Part shown: positions 47,662-55,255 of the stretch, piece by piece
Position numbering within the stretch: the stretch's first letter is position 1
Layout of the letters: every line of letters begins with the position of its first letter
Assembly: GCA_005116965.1 (NCBI GenBank)
Contig: SWDG01000006.1
Location: forward strand, 173,495 to 237,494
From: Nitrospira sp.
GTDB taxonomy: Bacteria; Nitrospirota; Nitrospiria; Nitrospirales; Nitrospiraceae
DNA: 64,000 nt
Reading direction: 5' to 3'
The notes under the pieces: model-generated
The model's database searches: none
What the model was told of the DNA's origin: nothing
What the model saw: only the letters and a program-made list of their open reading frames with translations
Made by a program: the position numbers and the translations under genes

Positions 47662-48561
47662 TTAGCCGAGTAGTTCTTGCCGGGCGGTCCGGACGAGAGC
47701 AAGGACGGCCGGGTGCTTCAGCCGTCGTTCCACCGTGATCGCATAGAAATGTTGCTTGAGCGTCTCAAGCCGTCCGAGCACCTGCACTTGGTATTGGCGG
47801 CAGATTTCCTTCTCGATCACCGACGCGCCGGGGAAGATGCCATATCCGTCCTGGCCGAACGCCTTCAAGGTTGCGCTGTCGTCGAACTCTCCCACAATGT
47901 TGGGCCGCAGCCCATGGTTGATTAGCCATTGGTCGAGCAGTCGTCGAAGCACGGCGTTGGGCGTTGGGAGGAGCAAGGGGGCGTTGTTTAATGACTGCGG
48001 AAATTCCCGACGATATTGAGCCGTCAGCTTCGCCGTTGCAAACAGCGTGATTCCTGATTCGCCCAAGGGATGGCTGTAGGCGTGCTCCTTGATGCTTGAT
48101 GGGGGTGGTGTGTCGGCGATTACGAGATCCAATCGATGGGCCGTCAGATCGGTCAAGAGTTGGAGCAGTTTGTCTTCTTGGCAGATCAAACGGGTCGGTC
48201 GGTACAGTTTCAGAGCCGACTTGAGGAGTTGGGTTGCCAGCGGTTTTGGAACGGCGTCTGCGATGCCGACGACCAGCCGGGCAGGATGCCCATTCACCTG
48301 CCCTTTGACCGTGTTCATCAGTTCCTGTCCGGTCGAAAAGATGTCTTCGGCGTACTTAAATACCAGATGTCCCATCTCCGTCAACGCCAGCCGGCGCCCT
48401 GTTCGGATGAACAACTTTTCGCCCAAGGTATTTTCCAACTGTCCGATCTGTCCGCTGATCGTGGGTTGGGCCAAGCGGAGTTCTTCGCACGCTTTCGTCA
48501 TGGTGCCGTGCTTCGCGACAGACCAGAAATACAAGAGATGATGATAGTTCAACCACTCCAT
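47662..48561 (-). CDS. nhaR: LysR-type regulator, NhaR-like
   Basis: The 299-residue protein starts MEWLNYHHLLYFWSVAKHGT, followed by an HTH (ACEELRLAQPTISGQIGQLE) and a LysR effector domain. The N-terminus (NYHHLLYFWSV, ISGQIGQLE) and the phrase VVGIADAVPKPLATQLL match NhaR rather than other LysR proteins. E. coli NhaR responds to sodium and pH. GGGGG lies before the ATG. It is divergent from the first TolC-like gene (start at 48706) and may control the export locus. Confidence 0.85.
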   Translation of the reverse strand: MEWLNYHHLLYFWSVAKHGTMTKACEELRLAQPTISGQIGQLENTLGEKLFIRTGRRLALTEMGHLVFKYAEDIFSTGQELMNTVKGQVNGHPARLVVGIADAVPKPLATQLLKSALKLYRPTRLICQEDKLLQLLTDLTAHRLDLVIADTPPPSSIKEHAYSHPLGESGITLFATAKLTAQYRREFPQSLNNAPLLLPTPNAVLRRLLDQWLINHGLRPNIVGEFDDSATLKAFGQDGYGIFPGASVIEKEICRQYQVQVLGRLETLKQHFYAITVERRLKHPAVLALVRTARQELLG

Positions 48562-48705
48562 GCGGCCCCCTTCGGTTGAGTCGGAGGCACTACTATACAT
48601 AGGAATTACCGATATCTCCAATCCGCTTTATCTATTTTCAAAAAAGAAGGGGAGATTGCTACTGTTGGCGCCGTCCGCCCAATGTATACGAGAGGAGCAT
48701 CCTTC

Positions 48706-50256
48706 ATGATCGCTCTGGTATTGGCCCTTGTGACTCTCCTGCCAATGACCGCACTGGCGGAACAGATTCATGATTCCAGCGCATTGAACGTCCAGTCGAC
48801 GCGCACCGCTCCACTGAGCATTGGCGAAGTTCTGGCTCGCATTGAGTTGACGCATCCACTGCTTCGAGCGATGGGGGCCGAGCGAACGAAGGCCCGGGCG
48901 AAAATCCTCAAGGCGCTCGGGGCCTGGGAACCGCAAGTCAAGAACTATATACAGACCGAACGGTATAATACGTGGAATCTCACGACGGCGTTCGACATTC
49001 CAAGTCAACACACGACGGGGTATGCCGACAGCACGGTCCAGGTCGGGCATCCATGGGGCTTCACAGTCGAAGGCGGGCTCCGCAGCGGTTTCGGGGATCG
49101 CGGCAACGCCAGGATTGCTTATCCGCCTGATTTGCTGGGCACCTATCAGCAGCAGCATTTCTACTACGGCGGGTCGTTCCACCTGCTTCGAGGCTTCATG
49201 GTCAACGAGGAGAACGCCCAGTTTCAACAGGCTGAACTCTCAGGGCCGCAAGCGGAGATCAAGGTGGCGCAGAAGCGACAGGATCTCTACCTGGCCGGGG
49301 CCGTGCAGTACTGGGATTGGCAGGTCGCCGTCAGGCAAGCCGAGATGGTAAAGCGTGCCTTGGCCGTTGCCGAAGAGCGCGTGGTCCAGGTCGAAGGGTT
49401 GGCCAAGGGCGGGAAGGTCGCGCCGCTCGATGTCGTCGAGGTGAGTCAAGAGGTGCAGAAGCGTCGAGAGGCTGCCATCGCCGCCCAGCGGAAGGTGGAG
49501 TATGAGCAGTACAAGCTGTCCCTCTTTCTCTGGGAGAACGGCGAGCCTGTGACGCCGCGACCGGAATGGGCGCCTGAATTCCAGGGCGAAACGCCGCTCC
49601 CGACGAAGGAGGAGGTCGCGGCCTATAAAGTAGAGGCGAAAGAAGCGCGGCCGGAAGTCCAGGATCTCTATATTGAAGCCAAGATGAACAATATCGATAT
49701 CAAGCTCGCCAAGAACAAACTGCTCCCGTTGTTGGATCTTGAGGGGGGGCCGACCAAAGGCGCTGCGGACTGGGTTGTGGGACTCGGGTATCGGGTCGGC
49801 GTGCACCTTGAGGTGCCGGTGTTCCAGCGGGAAGGGCGTGGGAAAGTCATGGCTGCGGAAGTGAACCAGCAACAATTGGCGTTGAAGCAGCTGTACACCG
49901 AGCAACAAGTCAGCATCGACGTGGATAACTGGCTCTCGGCCCAAGTACGCGCCAGAGACCGGGTGATGGCGGCGACGGAAGCCCTGCGGTTGGCCAAGAC
50001 GCTGGAAGAAGGTGAGCGCACGAGGTTTAACATGGGGGCCACCACCGTGTTATTCGTAAACCTCCGAGAGCGCAACGTAGTGGAATCGGCGTACCAGCTG
50101 TATCGGGCGCAGGCCGACTACGCCGTGTCGCGTGGAGGGATGCTGTGGGCCAGGGGAGCATTGGCCAAGCCGTGGGCCGAAAGCGAGTTGAGCAAGTACG
50201 GGAGCCCGCTGACGGCAGCGGGCATGAACGGTTACAAACAACCGGGCCGCGATTAA
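48706..50256 (+). CDS. TolC-like outer-membrane channel, first of three
   Basis: The 516-residue protein has a signal peptide (MIALVLALVTLLPMTALAEQ) and the TolC repeat layout with a long helical hairpin: REAAIAAQRKVEYEQYKLSL and the late RFNMGATTVLFVNLRERNVV. It forms an outer-membrane exit duct as a trimer. Its start is set by AGGAG in the cassette AGGAGCATCCTTC directly before the ATG. The C-terminus reads GYKQPGRD. It is 24 bases from the next paralogue. Confidence 0.85.
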   Translation: MIALVLALVTLLPMTALAEQIHDSSALNVQSTRTAPLSIGEVLARIELTHPLLRAMGAERTKARAKILKALGAWEPQVKNYIQTERYNTWNLTTAFDIPSQHTTGYADSTVQVGHPWGFTVEGGLRSGFGDRGNARIAYPPDLLGTYQQQHFYYGGSFHLLRGFMVNEENAQFQQAELSGPQAEIKVAQKRQDLYLAGAVQYWDWQVAVRQAEMVKRALAVAEERVVQVEGLAKGGKVAPLDVVEVSQEVQKRREAAIAAQRKVEYEQYKLSLFLWENGEPVTPRPEWAPEFQGETPLPTKEEVAAYKVEAKEARPEVQDLYIEAKMNNIDIKLAKNKLLPLLDLEGGPTKGAADWVVGLGYRVGVHLEVPVFQREGRGKVMAAEVNQQQLALKQLYTEQQVSIDVDNWLSAQVRARDRVMAATEALRLAKTLEEGERTRFNMGATTVLFVNLRERNVVESAYQLYRAQADYAVSRGGMLWARGALAKPWAESELSKYGSPLTAAGMNGYKQPGRD

Positions 50257-50279
50257 TCTGGCATAAGGAGCATCCTTCG

Positions 50280-51827
50280 ATGGCCGCTCTATTACTCGTG
50301 ATTCTGATCTTGCTTCCCGTGGCGACCGTGGCGGGACCCGTGCATGATTCAAGCGTATTGAAGGCGCAGTCCGCCCGCACCGAGCCCCTGACCATCAGCG
50401 AAGTGCTCGCTCGTATTGAGCTGACGCATCCGTTGCTTCGGGCGACCGGGGTTGATCGGATGCAGGCCAGGGCGAAAATTCTAAAGGCGCTCGGGGCCTG
50501 GGAACCGACGTTCAAGAACAGGACAGAGGTTGATCGGTATCAGTCTTGGAATTTCTTGGCCTTCGTGAATGAAACGACGGGGGGATTTAACGACAGCACG
50601 ATCGAGATGGGGCATCCCTGGGGCTTCAGGCTCAATGGGGGGATCCGCAACGGGTTTGGGGATCGTACCAGCCAAGGCGCCCATGCGCTCCTCGCGAATG
50701 ATGGACTGCTCTTCTGGCATAACCAGCAAATGCTCGTCGGTGGGGAGGCCCACCTGCTACGCGGCCTTATGATGAACGACGAGTACGCCGACTTCCAGAA
50801 GGCCGAACTCGCGGGGCCTCAGGCGGAGATCCATGTCGCTCAGGAACGACAGGACCTGTATCTTGCCGGGGCCGTGCAGTACTGGGACTGGCAGCTGGCG
50901 GTAAAGCAGGCTGAAGTGCAAAAGCGGACATTGGCCGTCGCTGAAGAACGCCTCCTTCAGATGCAAGGACTAGCCAAGGGTGGGAGGGTGGCGCCGCTCG
51001 ATGTCATTGAAGCCAACCAAGAGGTTCAGCATCGGCGAGAGGCTGCCATCGCCGCCCAGCGGAAAGTGGAGTATGAGCAGTACAAACTGTCCCTCTTTCT
51101 TTGGGAGAATAGCGAGCCGGTTACACCGAGGCCGGAATGGGCGCCAGAGTTCCAGGGCGAGACTCCTTTGCCGACCAAGGAGGAAATCGCCGCGAACAAA
51201 GTGGCGGCGAAAGAAGATCGGCCAGAAGTACGGGAGCTCTACATCGAAGCCAAGATGAACAATATCGACATCAAGCTCGCCAAGAACTACCTGCTCCCAA
51301 AGTTTGATTTTAAGGGAGGGCAAATGGAAGCCGGTGCGGACTGGACTGTGGGAGTCGGGTATCGGACGGAATCGTGGTTTGCGATGCCGCTGTTCCAGCG
51401 GGAAGGGCGCGGGAAGGTTCTGTACGCTGAAGCGGAGCAGCAACAATTGGTCTTCAAACAGCTGTACGCCGAGCAACAAGTCAGTATCGACGTGGACAAC
51501 TGGCTCTCGGCTCAAGTGCGGGCCAGAGACCGGGTAAAAGCGGCGACGGAAGCGCTGCGATTGGCCAAGACCTTGGAAGAGGGTGAGCGTACACGTTTCA
51601 ACATGGGGGCGAGCAGTGTGCTGTTCGTCAATCTGCGGGAACGCAATGTCGTAGATACAGCCTACAAGCTCTACCAGGCACAGTATGATTACACATTGTC
51701 ACGCGGAGGAATGTTGTGGGCCAAGGGCGCGTTGGCCAAGCCGTGGCCAGAAAGCGAGTTGGCCAAGTACGGGGACCCGCTGACGGCGGCGGGCATGAGC
51801 GGTTTCAAACGACCAGGACGCGATTAA
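50280..51827 (+). CDS. TolC-like outer-membrane channel, second of three
   Basis: The 515-residue paralogue starts MAALLLVILILLPVATVAGP, with the same AGGAGCATCCTTC cassette upstream. Long stretches of the helical part are near-identical to the first copy (YEQYKLSLFLWENSEPVTPR), while the stretch after residue 55 that would face the outside or the channel mouth differs (FLAFVNETTGGFNDSTIEMG). It ends GFKRPGRD. Duplication followed by divergence of one region suggests different partners or cargo. Confidence 0.85.
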   Translation: MAALLLVILILLPVATVAGPVHDSSVLKAQSARTEPLTISEVLARIELTHPLLRATGVDRMQARAKILKALGAWEPTFKNRTEVDRYQSWNFLAFVNETTGGFNDSTIEMGHPWGFRLNGGIRNGFGDRTSQGAHALLANDGLLFWHNQQMLVGGEAHLLRGLMMNDEYADFQKAELAGPQAEIHVAQERQDLYLAGAVQYWDWQLAVKQAEVQKRTLAVAEERLLQMQGLAKGGRVAPLDVIEANQEVQHRREAAIAAQRKVEYEQYKLSLFLWENSEPVTPRPEWAPEFQGETPLPTKEEIAANKVAAKEDRPEVRELYIEAKMNNIDIKLAKNYLLPKFDFKGGQMEAGADWTVGVGYRTESWFAMPLFQREGRGKVLYAEAEQQQLVFKQLYAEQQVSIDVDNWLSAQVRARDRVKAATEALRLAKTLEEGERTRFNMGASSVLFVNLRERNVVDTAYKLYQAQYDYTLSRGGMLWAKGALAKPWPESELAKYGDPLTAAGMSGFKRPGRD

Positions 51828-51852
51828 TTCAGCAACAAAGGAGCATCCTTCC

Positions 51853-53448
51853 TTGATCCTTCTCTTGCTGTTCTTGTTGATGATGGTGCCGGCGACCGCA
51901 CTGGCGGACTCGTTGCTCGACTCGAGTGTCCTGCAAGCGCAGTCGACTCGGACTGCTCCTCTGACCATTGAAGAGGTGCTGGCCAGGATTGAGTTGACCC
52001 ATCCGCTGCTCAAGGCAACCGGACTGGAGCGGGCGCAGGCTCGAGCGAAAGTCCTGAAAGCCTTGGCTGCGTGGGAGCCCAAGGTTCGGAACGAGATCGA
52101 GTTCGACCGGTATCAAACGTTCAATCTGACGAACGTCAGTGGCGCACCGAATCACTTAAGTTCTGGCTATAACGATCTCTTTGTCAAGCTTGGGCACCCC
52201 TGGGGGTGGGAGCTCTTCGTCGGTATCCGTAACGTCTTTGGGGATCATGCTACTCTCATGGGGGACAACACTAATGCCCCAACACGTAATGTACAGAGTC
52301 CAGGGGTGGGGATCCCTCAAGACTTGCAACTGTTCTATCCGCAGCAAATGGCCATAATCGGCGGAAAGTTTAATCTCCTGCGAGGGTTCATGGTCAACGA
52401 AGAGAACGCCCAGTTTCAACAGGCCGAACTCGCGGGGCCGCAAGCGGAGATCAAGGTGGCGCAGAAACGGCAAGATCTCTATCTCGCCGGGGCCGTGCAA
52501 TACTGGGACTGGCAGGTTGCCGTCAAACAAGCCGATGTGGTGAAGCGTGCACTGGCCGTCGCGGAAGAGCGCTATCGCATGGTTGAGGGGAGATCAAAAG
52601 CCGGCGCGGTCGCTCCGATCGACGTGGTCGAAGCCAAAGAAGAAGTTCAGCGACGTCGAGAAGCCGCAATTGCCGCGCAGCGAAAGGTTGAGTACGAGCA
52701 ATATAAGCTGGCGCTCTTTCTCTGGGAGAACGGCGAACCTATGACGCCTCGCCCTGAATGGGCGCCGGAATTTACAGGGGAAACGCCGTTGCCGAGTGAC
52801 GAGGATGTGGCGGCCTTCAAGGTGGAAGCGACGGAGGACCGGCCGGAAGTGCGAGATCTCTACATTGAAGCCAAATTGAATAATATCGAACTGAAACTGG
52901 CGAAGAATGGTCTGCTTCCCAAGCTCACGGTTGAGGGGGGCCCGGCGATCGGCTCTATCTATTGGGTTGGAGGTGTTGGCTACCGAATGGCTACTTTGTT
53001 CAGTATGCCGTTGTTCAATCGGACTGCTCGAGGGAAGGCCCTTCACGCGGAAGCGCAGCAGGAACGATTGGTATGGAAACAAGCCTATGCCGAGCGACAA
53101 GTTCAGATCGACGTTGATAACTGGCTTTCTGCCCAAGTGCGGGCGAGAGATCGTGTGAAGGCTGCGACAGAAGCTCTACGCTTGGCCAAGACGTTGGAAG
53201 AGGGCGAACGAGCTCGGTTTAATATGGGAGCAACGAGCGTGCTCTTCGTCAACCTGCGCGAGCGTACGGTGGTCGCAGCGGCCTATGAGCTCTACCGCGC
53301 CCAGGCCGATTATGTCGTGTCTCGAGGAGGAATGCTGTGGGCCAGAGGGGCGTTGTCGAAAGCGGTGCCTGACAACATACTCGCCAAATACGGTGATCAA
53401 TTACACGCGGCAGGGTCATCAGGCCGTAAACTGCCGGGACGTGACTAA
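51853..53448 (+). CDS. TolC-like outer-membrane channel, third of three
   Basis: The 531-residue paralogue starts at a TTG (MILLLLFLLMMVPATALADS) placed at the same distance from the AGGAGCATCCTTC cassette as in the other copies, which decides the start. It has an insertion of about 15 residues in the variable region (GDNTNAPTRNVQSPGVGIPQ). It shares the helical hairpin (LYRAQADYVVSRGGMLWARG) and the ending GRKLPGRD. The gap to the ABC gene is 130 bases. Confidence 0.85.
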   Translation: MILLLLFLLMMVPATALADSLLDSSVLQAQSTRTAPLTIEEVLARIELTHPLLKATGLERAQARAKVLKALAAWEPKVRNEIEFDRYQTFNLTNVSGAPNHLSSGYNDLFVKLGHPWGWELFVGIRNVFGDHATLMGDNTNAPTRNVQSPGVGIPQDLQLFYPQQMAIIGGKFNLLRGFMVNEENAQFQQAELAGPQAEIKVAQKRQDLYLAGAVQYWDWQVAVKQADVVKRALAVAEERYRMVEGRSKAGAVAPIDVVEAKEEVQRRREAAIAAQRKVEYEQYKLALFLWENGEPMTPRPEWAPEFTGETPLPSDEDVAAFKVEATEDRPEVRDLYIEAKLNNIELKLAKNGLLPKLTVEGGPAIGSIYWVGGVGYRMATLFSMPLFNRTARGKALHAEAQQERLVWKQAYAERQVQIDVDNWLSAQVRARDRVKAATEALRLAKTLEEGERARFNMGATSVLFVNLRERTVVAAAYELYRAQADYVVSRGGMLWARGALSKAVPDNILAKYGDQLHAAGSSGRKLPGRD

Positions 53449-53578: not shown

Positions 53579-55255
53579 ATGAAAGAACCTCATGGCGAAG
53601 GTTCCAAGGGCCTGTTCGAAGCGCTGATGAAGCAGCTGTCTGTGGCCATGAAGGCTGAGAAAAAAATCATGAGTTTGATTTTTTCTTATGCGCTGGCCGT
53701 CGGGTTCTTTTCTCTTATCATCCCGTTGACTGTGCAGGAATTGGTCAGCACCTTTTCCTATGCGGTTCAGCCGGTCATGATCTGGACGTTGACCGGCATT
53801 ATGTTGTCGGTGCTGTTGTTTGTCGGCCTGTTCAAGACATTCCACTTCTACGCGGTGGATGTCGTGCAACGCCGGATCTTTGCCCGAGTCACCGTTGCGA
53901 TGGTTGATCAGCTCCCTCGAAATCGTTTTAAAGGCACACGGCCGGAAATTGCGAATTACTTCATTGAAACGGTTTTCATGCAACGTGCCTTATCCACGTT
54001 GCTCATCGACCTGATCAATGTTGTAGTGGGTGGTACGGTCGGCATGATTATGCTGGTCGTGTACCATCCCTATTTTCTTATGTACGATATTCTGCTCATG
54101 ACTGGGTTCGCGATCACGTTTTTCGTGCTCTCGCGTGGTGCCCTCCGGACAACCCTCGCCATGTCTCATGCGAAATACGACGTCTTCAATTTTGTTCAAG
54201 AGGTTTCAAAGAATGCGTTGCAGCTGAAGGCCACTGATAGCCGCCCGTTTCTCATGAACAAAACGAACGAGCTCGTTAGTCGGTATGTTGAAACTCGGAA
54301 GGCGCGATTTGCTGTTCTCGTGCGGCAATATATTGGGTCCGTGGGCGGACAAGCCATTGCACAAGCCGGAGCTCTTGGCATCGCAGCCTCACTCATGTCG
54401 TTAGGGCAGTTGACTCTGGGGCAGTTAGTCGCCGTTCAAGCGGTCGTGAGCGCACTCGTCATCAATTTCGACTCCCTGATCAAGAACATGGGATATGTGT
54501 ATTATTTCTTCGCCTCCCTGACCCACCTTGATGAGGTCTTTAGTCAGGAGCAAGATCATATCTCAACCGAATCAACCGTGGCGCTGCCTAAACACTTGGC
54601 TCAAGGAGTTCGGGTTACCTGCAAAGGCGTGAGTTTGGTTCACAGTGGGGTATCCGTATTCGATGGCTTCAACCTGGATGTTGCACCGGGTGAGAAGCTC
54701 GGTATCTACGCTCGGACCACGGGGGCCAAAACAGCTTTGGCTAGAGTGTTAGGTGGCCTCGAAGTTCCAACGAATGGCGTTGTTCAGTATAATGGGGTCG
54801 ATCTCAGGTATATCGACGGCAATGCCATCAACCAATGCCGCAGTGTCATGATCGACTCTCAATTGTCGTTGGTGAGGGGAACGGTCGAAGAAAATATCGT
54901 CATGGGACGTTCCTATGTCACGTATGACGACCTCAACTGGGCGCTCCGCTTTACCGAACTTGAAGAAGATGTCGAAGGGTTGCCACGCGGAGCCAAGTCC
55001 GATATCTCTACGCTGGGAGAATCCCTTTCGCCGACTCACATTGTCCAGATCCTCTTGGCTAGAGCCATTTTGGGACGTCCGCAAGTCCTTATATTTGATG
55101 GCCTCATTCACTCGCTCGAGCCGTCGTTGCGTGAGCGTATCTTGCGTCGGCTGTGCTCGAAAGATGAAGCCTGGTCCGTGATTTTCGTGTCGACGGATCC
55201 CAATCTTACGGATCATGCGGATCGTCGCATCATGCTGCATCACGCTCATGCGTAA
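53579..55255 (+). CDS. ABC exporter-like protein with a degenerate ATPase domain
   Basis: The 558-residue protein has an N-terminal membrane domain with about five or six segments (LIFSYALAVGFFSLIIPLTV onward) and a C-terminal ABC domain from about residue 345. The ABC motifs are altered: Walker A is ARTTGAKT (Lys384 kept, glycines lost), the Q-loop reads MIDSQ, the signature is LSPTH (483-487), Walker B is LIFDG with Gly508 in place of the catalytic Glu, the D-loop is HSLE, and the switch His is Thr539 in FVSTDPN. The frame is intact and codon use is normal. It probably cannot hydrolyse ATP. It lies between TolC-like and HlyD-like genes. GGGGG precedes the ATG. Confidence 0.85.
   Translation: MKEPHGEGSKGLFEALMKQLSVAMKAEKKIMSLIFSYALAVGFFSLIIPLTVQELVSTFSYAVQPVMIWTLTGIMLSVLLFVGLFKTFHFYAVDVVQRRIFARVTVAMVDQLPRNRFKGTRPEIANYFIETVFMQRALSTLLIDLINVVVGGTVGMIMLVVYHPYFLMYDILLMTGFAITFFVLSRGALRTTLAMSHAKYDVFNFVQEVSKNALQLKATDSRPFLMNKTNELVSRYVETRKARFAVLVRQYIGSVGGQAIAQAGALGIAASLMSLGQLTLGQLVAVQAVVSALVINFDSLIKNMGYVYYFFASLTHLDEVFSQEQDHISTESTVALPKHLAQGVRVTCKGVSLVHSGVSVFDGFNLDVAPGEKLGIYARTTGAKTALARVLGGLEVPTNGVVQYNGVDLRYIDGNAINQCRSVMIDSQLSLVRGTVEENIVMGRSYVTYDDLNWALRFTELEEDVEGLPRGAKSDISTLGESLSPTHIVQILLARAILGRPQVLIFDGLIHSLEPSLRERILRRLCSKDEAWSVIFVSTDPNLTDHADRRIMLHHAHA

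Follow-up and report, generated by a model that had tools for sequence, protein, structure and literature searches.

The pseudo-ABC gene and its export cassette

The window, a 64,000 nucleotide stretch of Nitrospira sp. DNA, contains an export cassette in which three genes for TolC/OEP-family outer-membrane channels are followed by a fourth gene, encoding a fusion of a transmembrane domain (TMD) and a nucleotide-binding domain (NBD) without ATPase motifs (hereafter pseudo-ABC), and then by the gene for a HlyD-family adaptor (Table 1). A preliminary description of this locus had placed the pseudo-ABC in an otherwise intact export operon, and both the adaptor and the three channels are indeed recognised by Pfam. 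The channels are encoded by a tandem array of duplicated genes with 65-71% identity, and the same leader, GGAGCATCCTTC, precedes each of the three channel starts (window 48690-51860); a mixed trimer of three different TolC-like subunits could be conceived. Promoter and terminator scans returned nothing above chance, and no substrate gene was recognised beside the operon.

Table 1 Features of the pseudo-ABC locus, with coordinates in the window
Feature	Coordinates	Strand	Remarks
LysR-type regulator	47662..48621	-	divergent from operon; start probably 48561
TolC/OEP-family outer-membrane channel 1	48682..50256	+	Pfam OEP E 2.8e-23
TolC/OEP-family channel 2	50145..51827	+	true start probably near 50280; 71% identical to channel 1
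TolC/OEP-family channel 3	51853..53448	+	65-67% identical to channels 1 and 2
Pseudo-ABC exporter (TMD-NBD fusion without ATPase motifs), 558 aa	53579..55255	+	uninterrupted ORF; start ATG 53579 (alternative GTG 53573), stop at 55255
Pseudo-ABC TMD, residues ~1-330	53579..54568	+	hhalign vs HlyB/PCAT TMD
Degenerate NBD, residues ~345-553	54611..55237	+	Pfam ABC_tran 362-507; median dN/dS 0.038
Former Walker A, A-R-T-T-G-A-K-T	54710..54733	+	three motif glycines gone, Lys/Thr retained
Former Q-loop, D-S-Q	54854..54862	+	S427 in Gln position; DS near-invariant
Former signature motif, L-S-P-T-H instead of LSGGQ	55025..55039	+	alignment
Former Walker B and D-loop, VLIFD-G508-LI-H511-SLEP	55085..55123	+	Glu to Gly; His511 near-invariant
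Former switch region, S-T-D-P	55190..55201	+	His to Thr/Asn; D540-P541 near-invariant
HlyD-family periplasmic adaptor, 481 aa	55301..56746	+	Pfam HlyD_3 E 9e-7; TIGR01843 E 2e-18

The pseudo-ABC matches Pfam ABC_tran with 35.1 bits (cut-off 25), and hhalign aligned it with intact HlyB/PCAT exporters over 516 columns, the TMD included (99.96% probability, E 4e-39). Judged by sequence, it is a descendant of a type I secretion-like ABC exporter, and its TMD-NBD architecture places it in the ABC exporter superfamily (type IV fold). The NCBIfam cut-offs of the type I secretion system (T1SS) subfamilies are not reached (TIGR03375, 101 of 693 bits; TIGR01846, 90 of 726 bits); the T1SS trait of a HlyD-type adaptor and a TolC-type channel encoded alongside is present. 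The nearest matches, up to 99% identical, are from Nitrospira MAGs. An AlphaFold2 model built on 14 orthologues (pLDDT 50, pTM 0.36) was too poor for inspection.

Replacement of the ATP-site residues

The motifs were read from an alignment with 12 intact exporters, the genome's own HlyB included, all 12 of which retain their ATPase motifs in that alignment. In the pseudo-ABC, Walker A (GxxGxGK[ST]) has become A378-R-T-T381-G-A383-K384-T385, the Q-loop Gln is Ser427, LSGGQ reads L483-S-P-T-H487, Walker B (LIFD507-G508) keeps its Asp and has Gly in place of the catalytic Glu, the D-loop SALD is H511-S-L-E514 with its Asp gone, and the switch His is T539. A complete ATP site (Walker A, Walker B with Glu, LSGGQ, Q-loop and switch His) is absent from the window protein. 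The preliminary description had held every ATPase hallmark to be altered, which is correct for the Walker A glycines, the Q-loop Gln, LSGGQ, the Glu and the His, and slightly too broad in that Lys and Thr of the P-loop and Asp of Walker B are kept. Its readings of LSPTH for LSGGQ, LIFDG for LIFDE and an altered switch His agree with the alignment, and its reading of MIDSQ at the Q-loop is off by one residue: the Gln position is occupied by Ser427, and the Gln that had been noted is the next residue, which is unconserved (80 Q, 15 H and 5 R in 110 homologues).

Conservation was counted in 110 distinct NBD-bearing homologues, nearly all of them from Nitrospirota and two from Persicobacter. The catalytic Glu, the switch His and LSGGQ were each found in 0/110, Gly stands at the Glu position in 107/110, and two rows still have Gln at the Q-loop position. 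The motif loss is not a matter of chance, since neither Glu nor switch His survives in any row and a single residue, Gly, has taken the place of the Glu in nearly all. Several new residues are near-invariant (G508, 107/110; H511, 109/111; W532, 109/110; D540, 107/110; S427, 100/110), and on this alignment the ATP-site residues were replaced and then fixed. Three residues of the old site are retained across the family (K384, 91/110; T385, 82/110; D507, 104/110), and nucleotide binding may be possible because Lys384 and Thr385 persist in most Nitrospirota members. Some tandem copies keep near-complete P-loops (e.g. GTSTGKT), and in the second family of the order the P-loop Lys is lost too (TESQRL).

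Purifying selection on the pseudo-ABC

Among 213 pairs of close orthologues, the median dN/dS was 0.069 over the whole protein; taken separately, the TMD had 0.083 and the NBD 0.038. The NBD is thus more tightly conserved than the TMD in Nitrospira and therefore does something important there. The sequences argue strongly for a working pseudo-ATPase, as had been suggested, and against decay: the same altered motifs recur in all orthologues and paralogues under strong purifying selection, and neither intact Glu or signature motifs in orthologues nor a high dN/dS, the two observations named beforehand as contrary evidence, were found. A decaying pseudogene was rejected on the low dN/dS (0.04 for the NBD) and the conserved altered motifs, with no catalytic Glu in 110 homologues and new near-invariant residues in their stead; a sequencing or assembly error was rejected because dozens of independent genomes agree. 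Real loss occurs too, as in one genome (G411) with a decayed pseudo-ABC remnant containing several stops (L131 1441-2004, L133 1498-1788).

Distribution of the family

A relative of the pseudo-ABC was found at E 1e-60 in 74 of the 79 genomes of the genus Nitrospira, and a three-clade profile detected members in 111 of 396 Nitrospirota genomes, all within two families of one order. The usual cassette is HlyD-OMF-ABC, with three channels in place of one in the window's clade, and LysR genes, about 54% identical, flank the cassette in the second family, copies without an NBD included. Tandem pseudo-ABC pairs, both copies lacking the catalytic motifs, are present at L135 4594-8102, L136 7692-11215, L137 7877-11323, L138 8098-11527, L139 6293-9844 and L146 7838-11416; these are possible pseudo-heterodimers. 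A clade 38-41% identical stands without its own HlyD or OMF (L077 8574-10376, L144 8755-10494, L148 8399-10093) and adjoins glycosyltransferase, lipid A N-terminal-like and ArnT-like genes, named from sequence alone. A 263-aa 4HB_MCP_1 protein (E 2e-9), apparently without a signalling domain, is encoded after the pseudo-ABC at L139 9934-10725 and at 11 other surveyed loci, found in many Nitrospiraceae outside the window's clade.

Outside the phylum, plasmid and chromid records were searched by tblastn with the window protein, and the best full-length matches in these records were proteins of Persicobacter, Novosphingobium and Riemerella, not intact exporters. The Bacteroidota and sphingomonad homologues sit in ABC-HlyD-TolC runs wherever annotation exists. 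All are degenerate, with LLKEP, VINDT or MLSPL as Walker B and neither LSGGQ nor a switch His; the sphingomonad proteins have no P-loop, and in that of Riemerella a complete P-loop and a Glu persist, with the Walker B Asp changed to Lys. In a tree built from the TMD only (no motif columns), with the non-Nitrospirota members taken from the plasmid and chromid records, the three groups came together against an outgroup of the 12 intact exporters (support 100/100). In the TMD, the Bacteroidota and sphingomonad proteins share 23-26% identity with the window protein, and intact exporters 11-16%. The window HlyD matches the adaptors of both groups at 5e-54 to 4e-16. From the tree, the higher TMD identities, the alike adaptors and the degenerate motifs throughout, we infer one old family, of common ancestry in three phyla, whose ABC exporters are ATPase-dead and belong to tripartite cassettes. 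Pseudo-ABC, adaptor and channel have stayed together as one cassette in these phyla. The proposed family criterion is the lack of a complete ATP site, with LSGGQ, the Q-loop Gln and the switch His gone and the Walker B acids impaired; no sampled member has a complete site, in the 110 rows or among the Bacteroidota and sphingomonad proteins.

Natural loss of the NBD

Three species of genus g16, which belongs to the second family, encode a pseudo-ABC reduced to the TMD (337-346 aa; L128, L129, L130). HlyD, OMF and LysR genes still adjoin these copies and are followed by DabB/DabA genes. No separate related NBD was found in the three genomes at E 1e-40 among all first-look candidates scored. The TMD-only genes are constrained, but less so than their HlyD and OMF partners (dN/dS 0.23-0.29 versus 0.10-0.17).

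DabB/DabA genes (inorganic carbon uptake) were located at L155 9518-15736, L156 5504-11731, L157 1997-8210, L160 14975-19000 and L180 82-3914. They lie beside the three NBD-less copies and near one full-length copy of the same family, and, on one Sphingobium plasmid, directly upstream of a pseudo-ABC; this neighbour thus recurs in two phyla. As part of the mechanism the DabA/DabB link was rejected, because none of the remaining sphingomonad and Nitrospira loci that were inspected shows it; the window's own genome carries DabA on a separate contig.

Energy source and alternative explanations

Because the residues that burn ATP are replaced and the ATPase half is gone altogether in three species, the cargo is probably moved by an energy source other than ATP hydrolysis at the protein's own active sites. 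One alternative is that the protein is half of a heterodimer with an intact ABC exporter; heterodimeric exporters in which one of the two sites is degenerate are familiar (TM287/288, BmrCD, TmrAB; PMC8277102). An intact HlyB-type exporter gene (L166 10491-12671) does exist elsewhere in the window's genome, but within a complete HlyB-HlyD-TolC type I secretion operon (L166 10491-15435), where it already has its own HlyD and TolC. The pseudo-ABC is moreover present without that HlyB (E 1e-100) in ten genomes at least 90% complete (G002, G012, G014, G028, G031, G038, G043, G044, G045 and G067), so an obligatory heterodimer with the genome's intact HlyB was rejected. A mixed dimer would have no complete ATP site, because the pseudo-subunit has lost the Walker B Glu and the signature and both composite sites would be incomplete; in the tandem pairs of some genomes both copies are dead, and the conserved cassette holds no second ABC gene save the equally dead copy in some relatives. 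The role of heterodimer half, which the preliminary description had offered, is accordingly disfavoured and is considered most unlikely. The pseudo-ABC could instead be powered in trans by an ATPase encoded elsewhere, possibly one that also serves other systems. For T1SS-like loci without an ABC transporter, Kamneva et al. proposed SecA_DEAD proteins as the power source (PMC4452313), and the genomes contain other ATPases. However, the loci surveyed in Nitrospirota and outside have no ATPase gene that recurs in the cassette from one family or phylum to another, and this arrangement is considered distinctly unlikely.

That ATP is still bound or slowly turned over, by unusual chemistry through Lys384, Thr385 and Asp507, would fit the retention of these three residues at the frequencies given above, the near-complete P-loops of some tandem copies and the complete one in Riemerella, but is hard to square with the loss of the Lys in the second family, the sphingomonad proteins without a P-loop and the three species without an NBD, and is judged very unlikely. 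The pseudo-ABC could also be a non-transporting scaffold, anchoring HlyD and the channel, or a passive conduit opened by a ligand at the reshaped NBD site, with the substrate following its own gradient or being periplasmic; the preliminary description had offered both roles. The near-invariant replacements at the former ATP site suggest that a ligand binds or an interface forms there, the TMD is fully kept, and the sensor-like four-helix-bundle protein (4HB_MCP_1) follows the operon in 12 surveyed loci; against this, the NBD-less copies show that the system can do without a ligand site in the NBD, and passive conduction through six TM helices would be atypical of the ABC exporter fold. A scaffold or conduit is regarded as unlikely. 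A gradient-driven transporter is the better guess, because the NBD has been deleted naturally with the TMD conserved and because SbmA, an ABC-exporter-like TMD without an NBD that is proton-driven (PMC13316013), provides a precedent.

Proposed mechanism

The best explanation, to which about an even chance is given, is that the pseudo-ABC forms the inner-membrane part of a HlyD/TolC-type tripartite exporter that does not hydrolyse ATP and whose TMDs are driven by a gradient. By analogy with SbmA, the substrate would pass through a pair of TMDs whose conformational changes are driven by a proton or sodium gradient; the paired dead NBDs, where still present, may act as a structural clamp or a ligand-sensing regulatory domain, and the adaptor and channel(s) would hand the substrate on to the outside. 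Within the TMD, E27, H163 and Q250 are invariant or nearly so in the family, and D144 and D/E298 are always acidic in Nitrospirota. The only TM acid that the three phyla share and intact exporters lack is E287 (TM6); in the subclade of the window protein this position is Gln instead (43 of 116 family rows). D144, D/E298 and E/Q287 are candidate coupling residues, with the case for E287 weakened because the window's own subclade has Gln there. At the level of sequence, where the conserved acids E27, D144, D/E298 and E/Q287 are seen, the glutamate ladder of SbmA was not recognised in the TMD. In a more tentative extension, put at somewhat under an even chance, the tripartite exporters of the three phyla may represent an ABC exporter that turned gradient-driven without first shedding its dead, repurposed NBD. 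They would then stand between ABC exporters and SbmA-like secondary transporters, with several steps preserved in members that keep the P-loop, lack it or have no NBD at all.

Comparison with known systems

The pseudo-ABC is homologous to the HlyB/LssB-type T1SS exporters (TIGR01846, TIGR03375) along TMD and NBD and has the same kinds of partner, HlyD and TolC, but it lacks the C39-like domain and the catalytic motifs and scores ~90-101 bits against cut-offs of 693-726. In TM287/288, BmrCD and TmrAB the catalytic residues of one NBD are likewise altered; those exporters keep one complete ATP site, whereas the pseudo-ABC has lost its share of both. The SecA_DEAD-associated T1SS-like loci (PMC4452313) also have T1SS-type partners without an ordinary ABC ATPase, but contain no ABC-like membrane protein, and no SecA_DEAD gene was noticed beside the pseudo-ABC loci. 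The HlyBD2-OMP2 cassette of Blastomonas fulva (hlyB 1659 bp, hlyD2 1053 bp, omp2 1503 bp; PMC9505733), compared by description only, appears to belong to the sphingomonad branch by its gene order and sizes and its best match in N. aromaticivorans; the excerpted account calls it an ABC-type pump under a heading that presents ABC transport as ATP-driven and, within that excerpt, does not mention motif loss.

SbmA/BacA (SLiPT) has an ABC-exporter-like TMD that works without an ATPase and the same domain content as the NBD-less copies. SLiPTs are thought to be derived from YddA-like ABCs, have TM0 helices and a glutamate ladder, lack coupling helices and import peptides (PMC13316013). In contrast, most pseudo-ABC members retain a dead NBD and lie within an export cassette with adaptor and channel; the SLiPT trait of a TMD without an NBD does not apply to the window protein, which has kept its dead NBD, and is confined to the three relatives that lack it.

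Literature searches covering mainly open-access papers returned no account of tripartite systems with a degenerate or pseudo-ABC protein, and the ATPase-dead tripartite ABC exporter family is apparently undescribed so far. Non-ATPases may go unnoticed in databases under names like 'ABC transporter ATP-binding protein' or 'HlyB', and the family forms a natural series for asking what roles NBDs have besides hydrolysis. ABC transporters are near-synonymous with ATP hydrolysis, SbmA being the established exception; if the present reading is true, the move away from ATP occurred more than once, and also inside a trans-envelope export machine.
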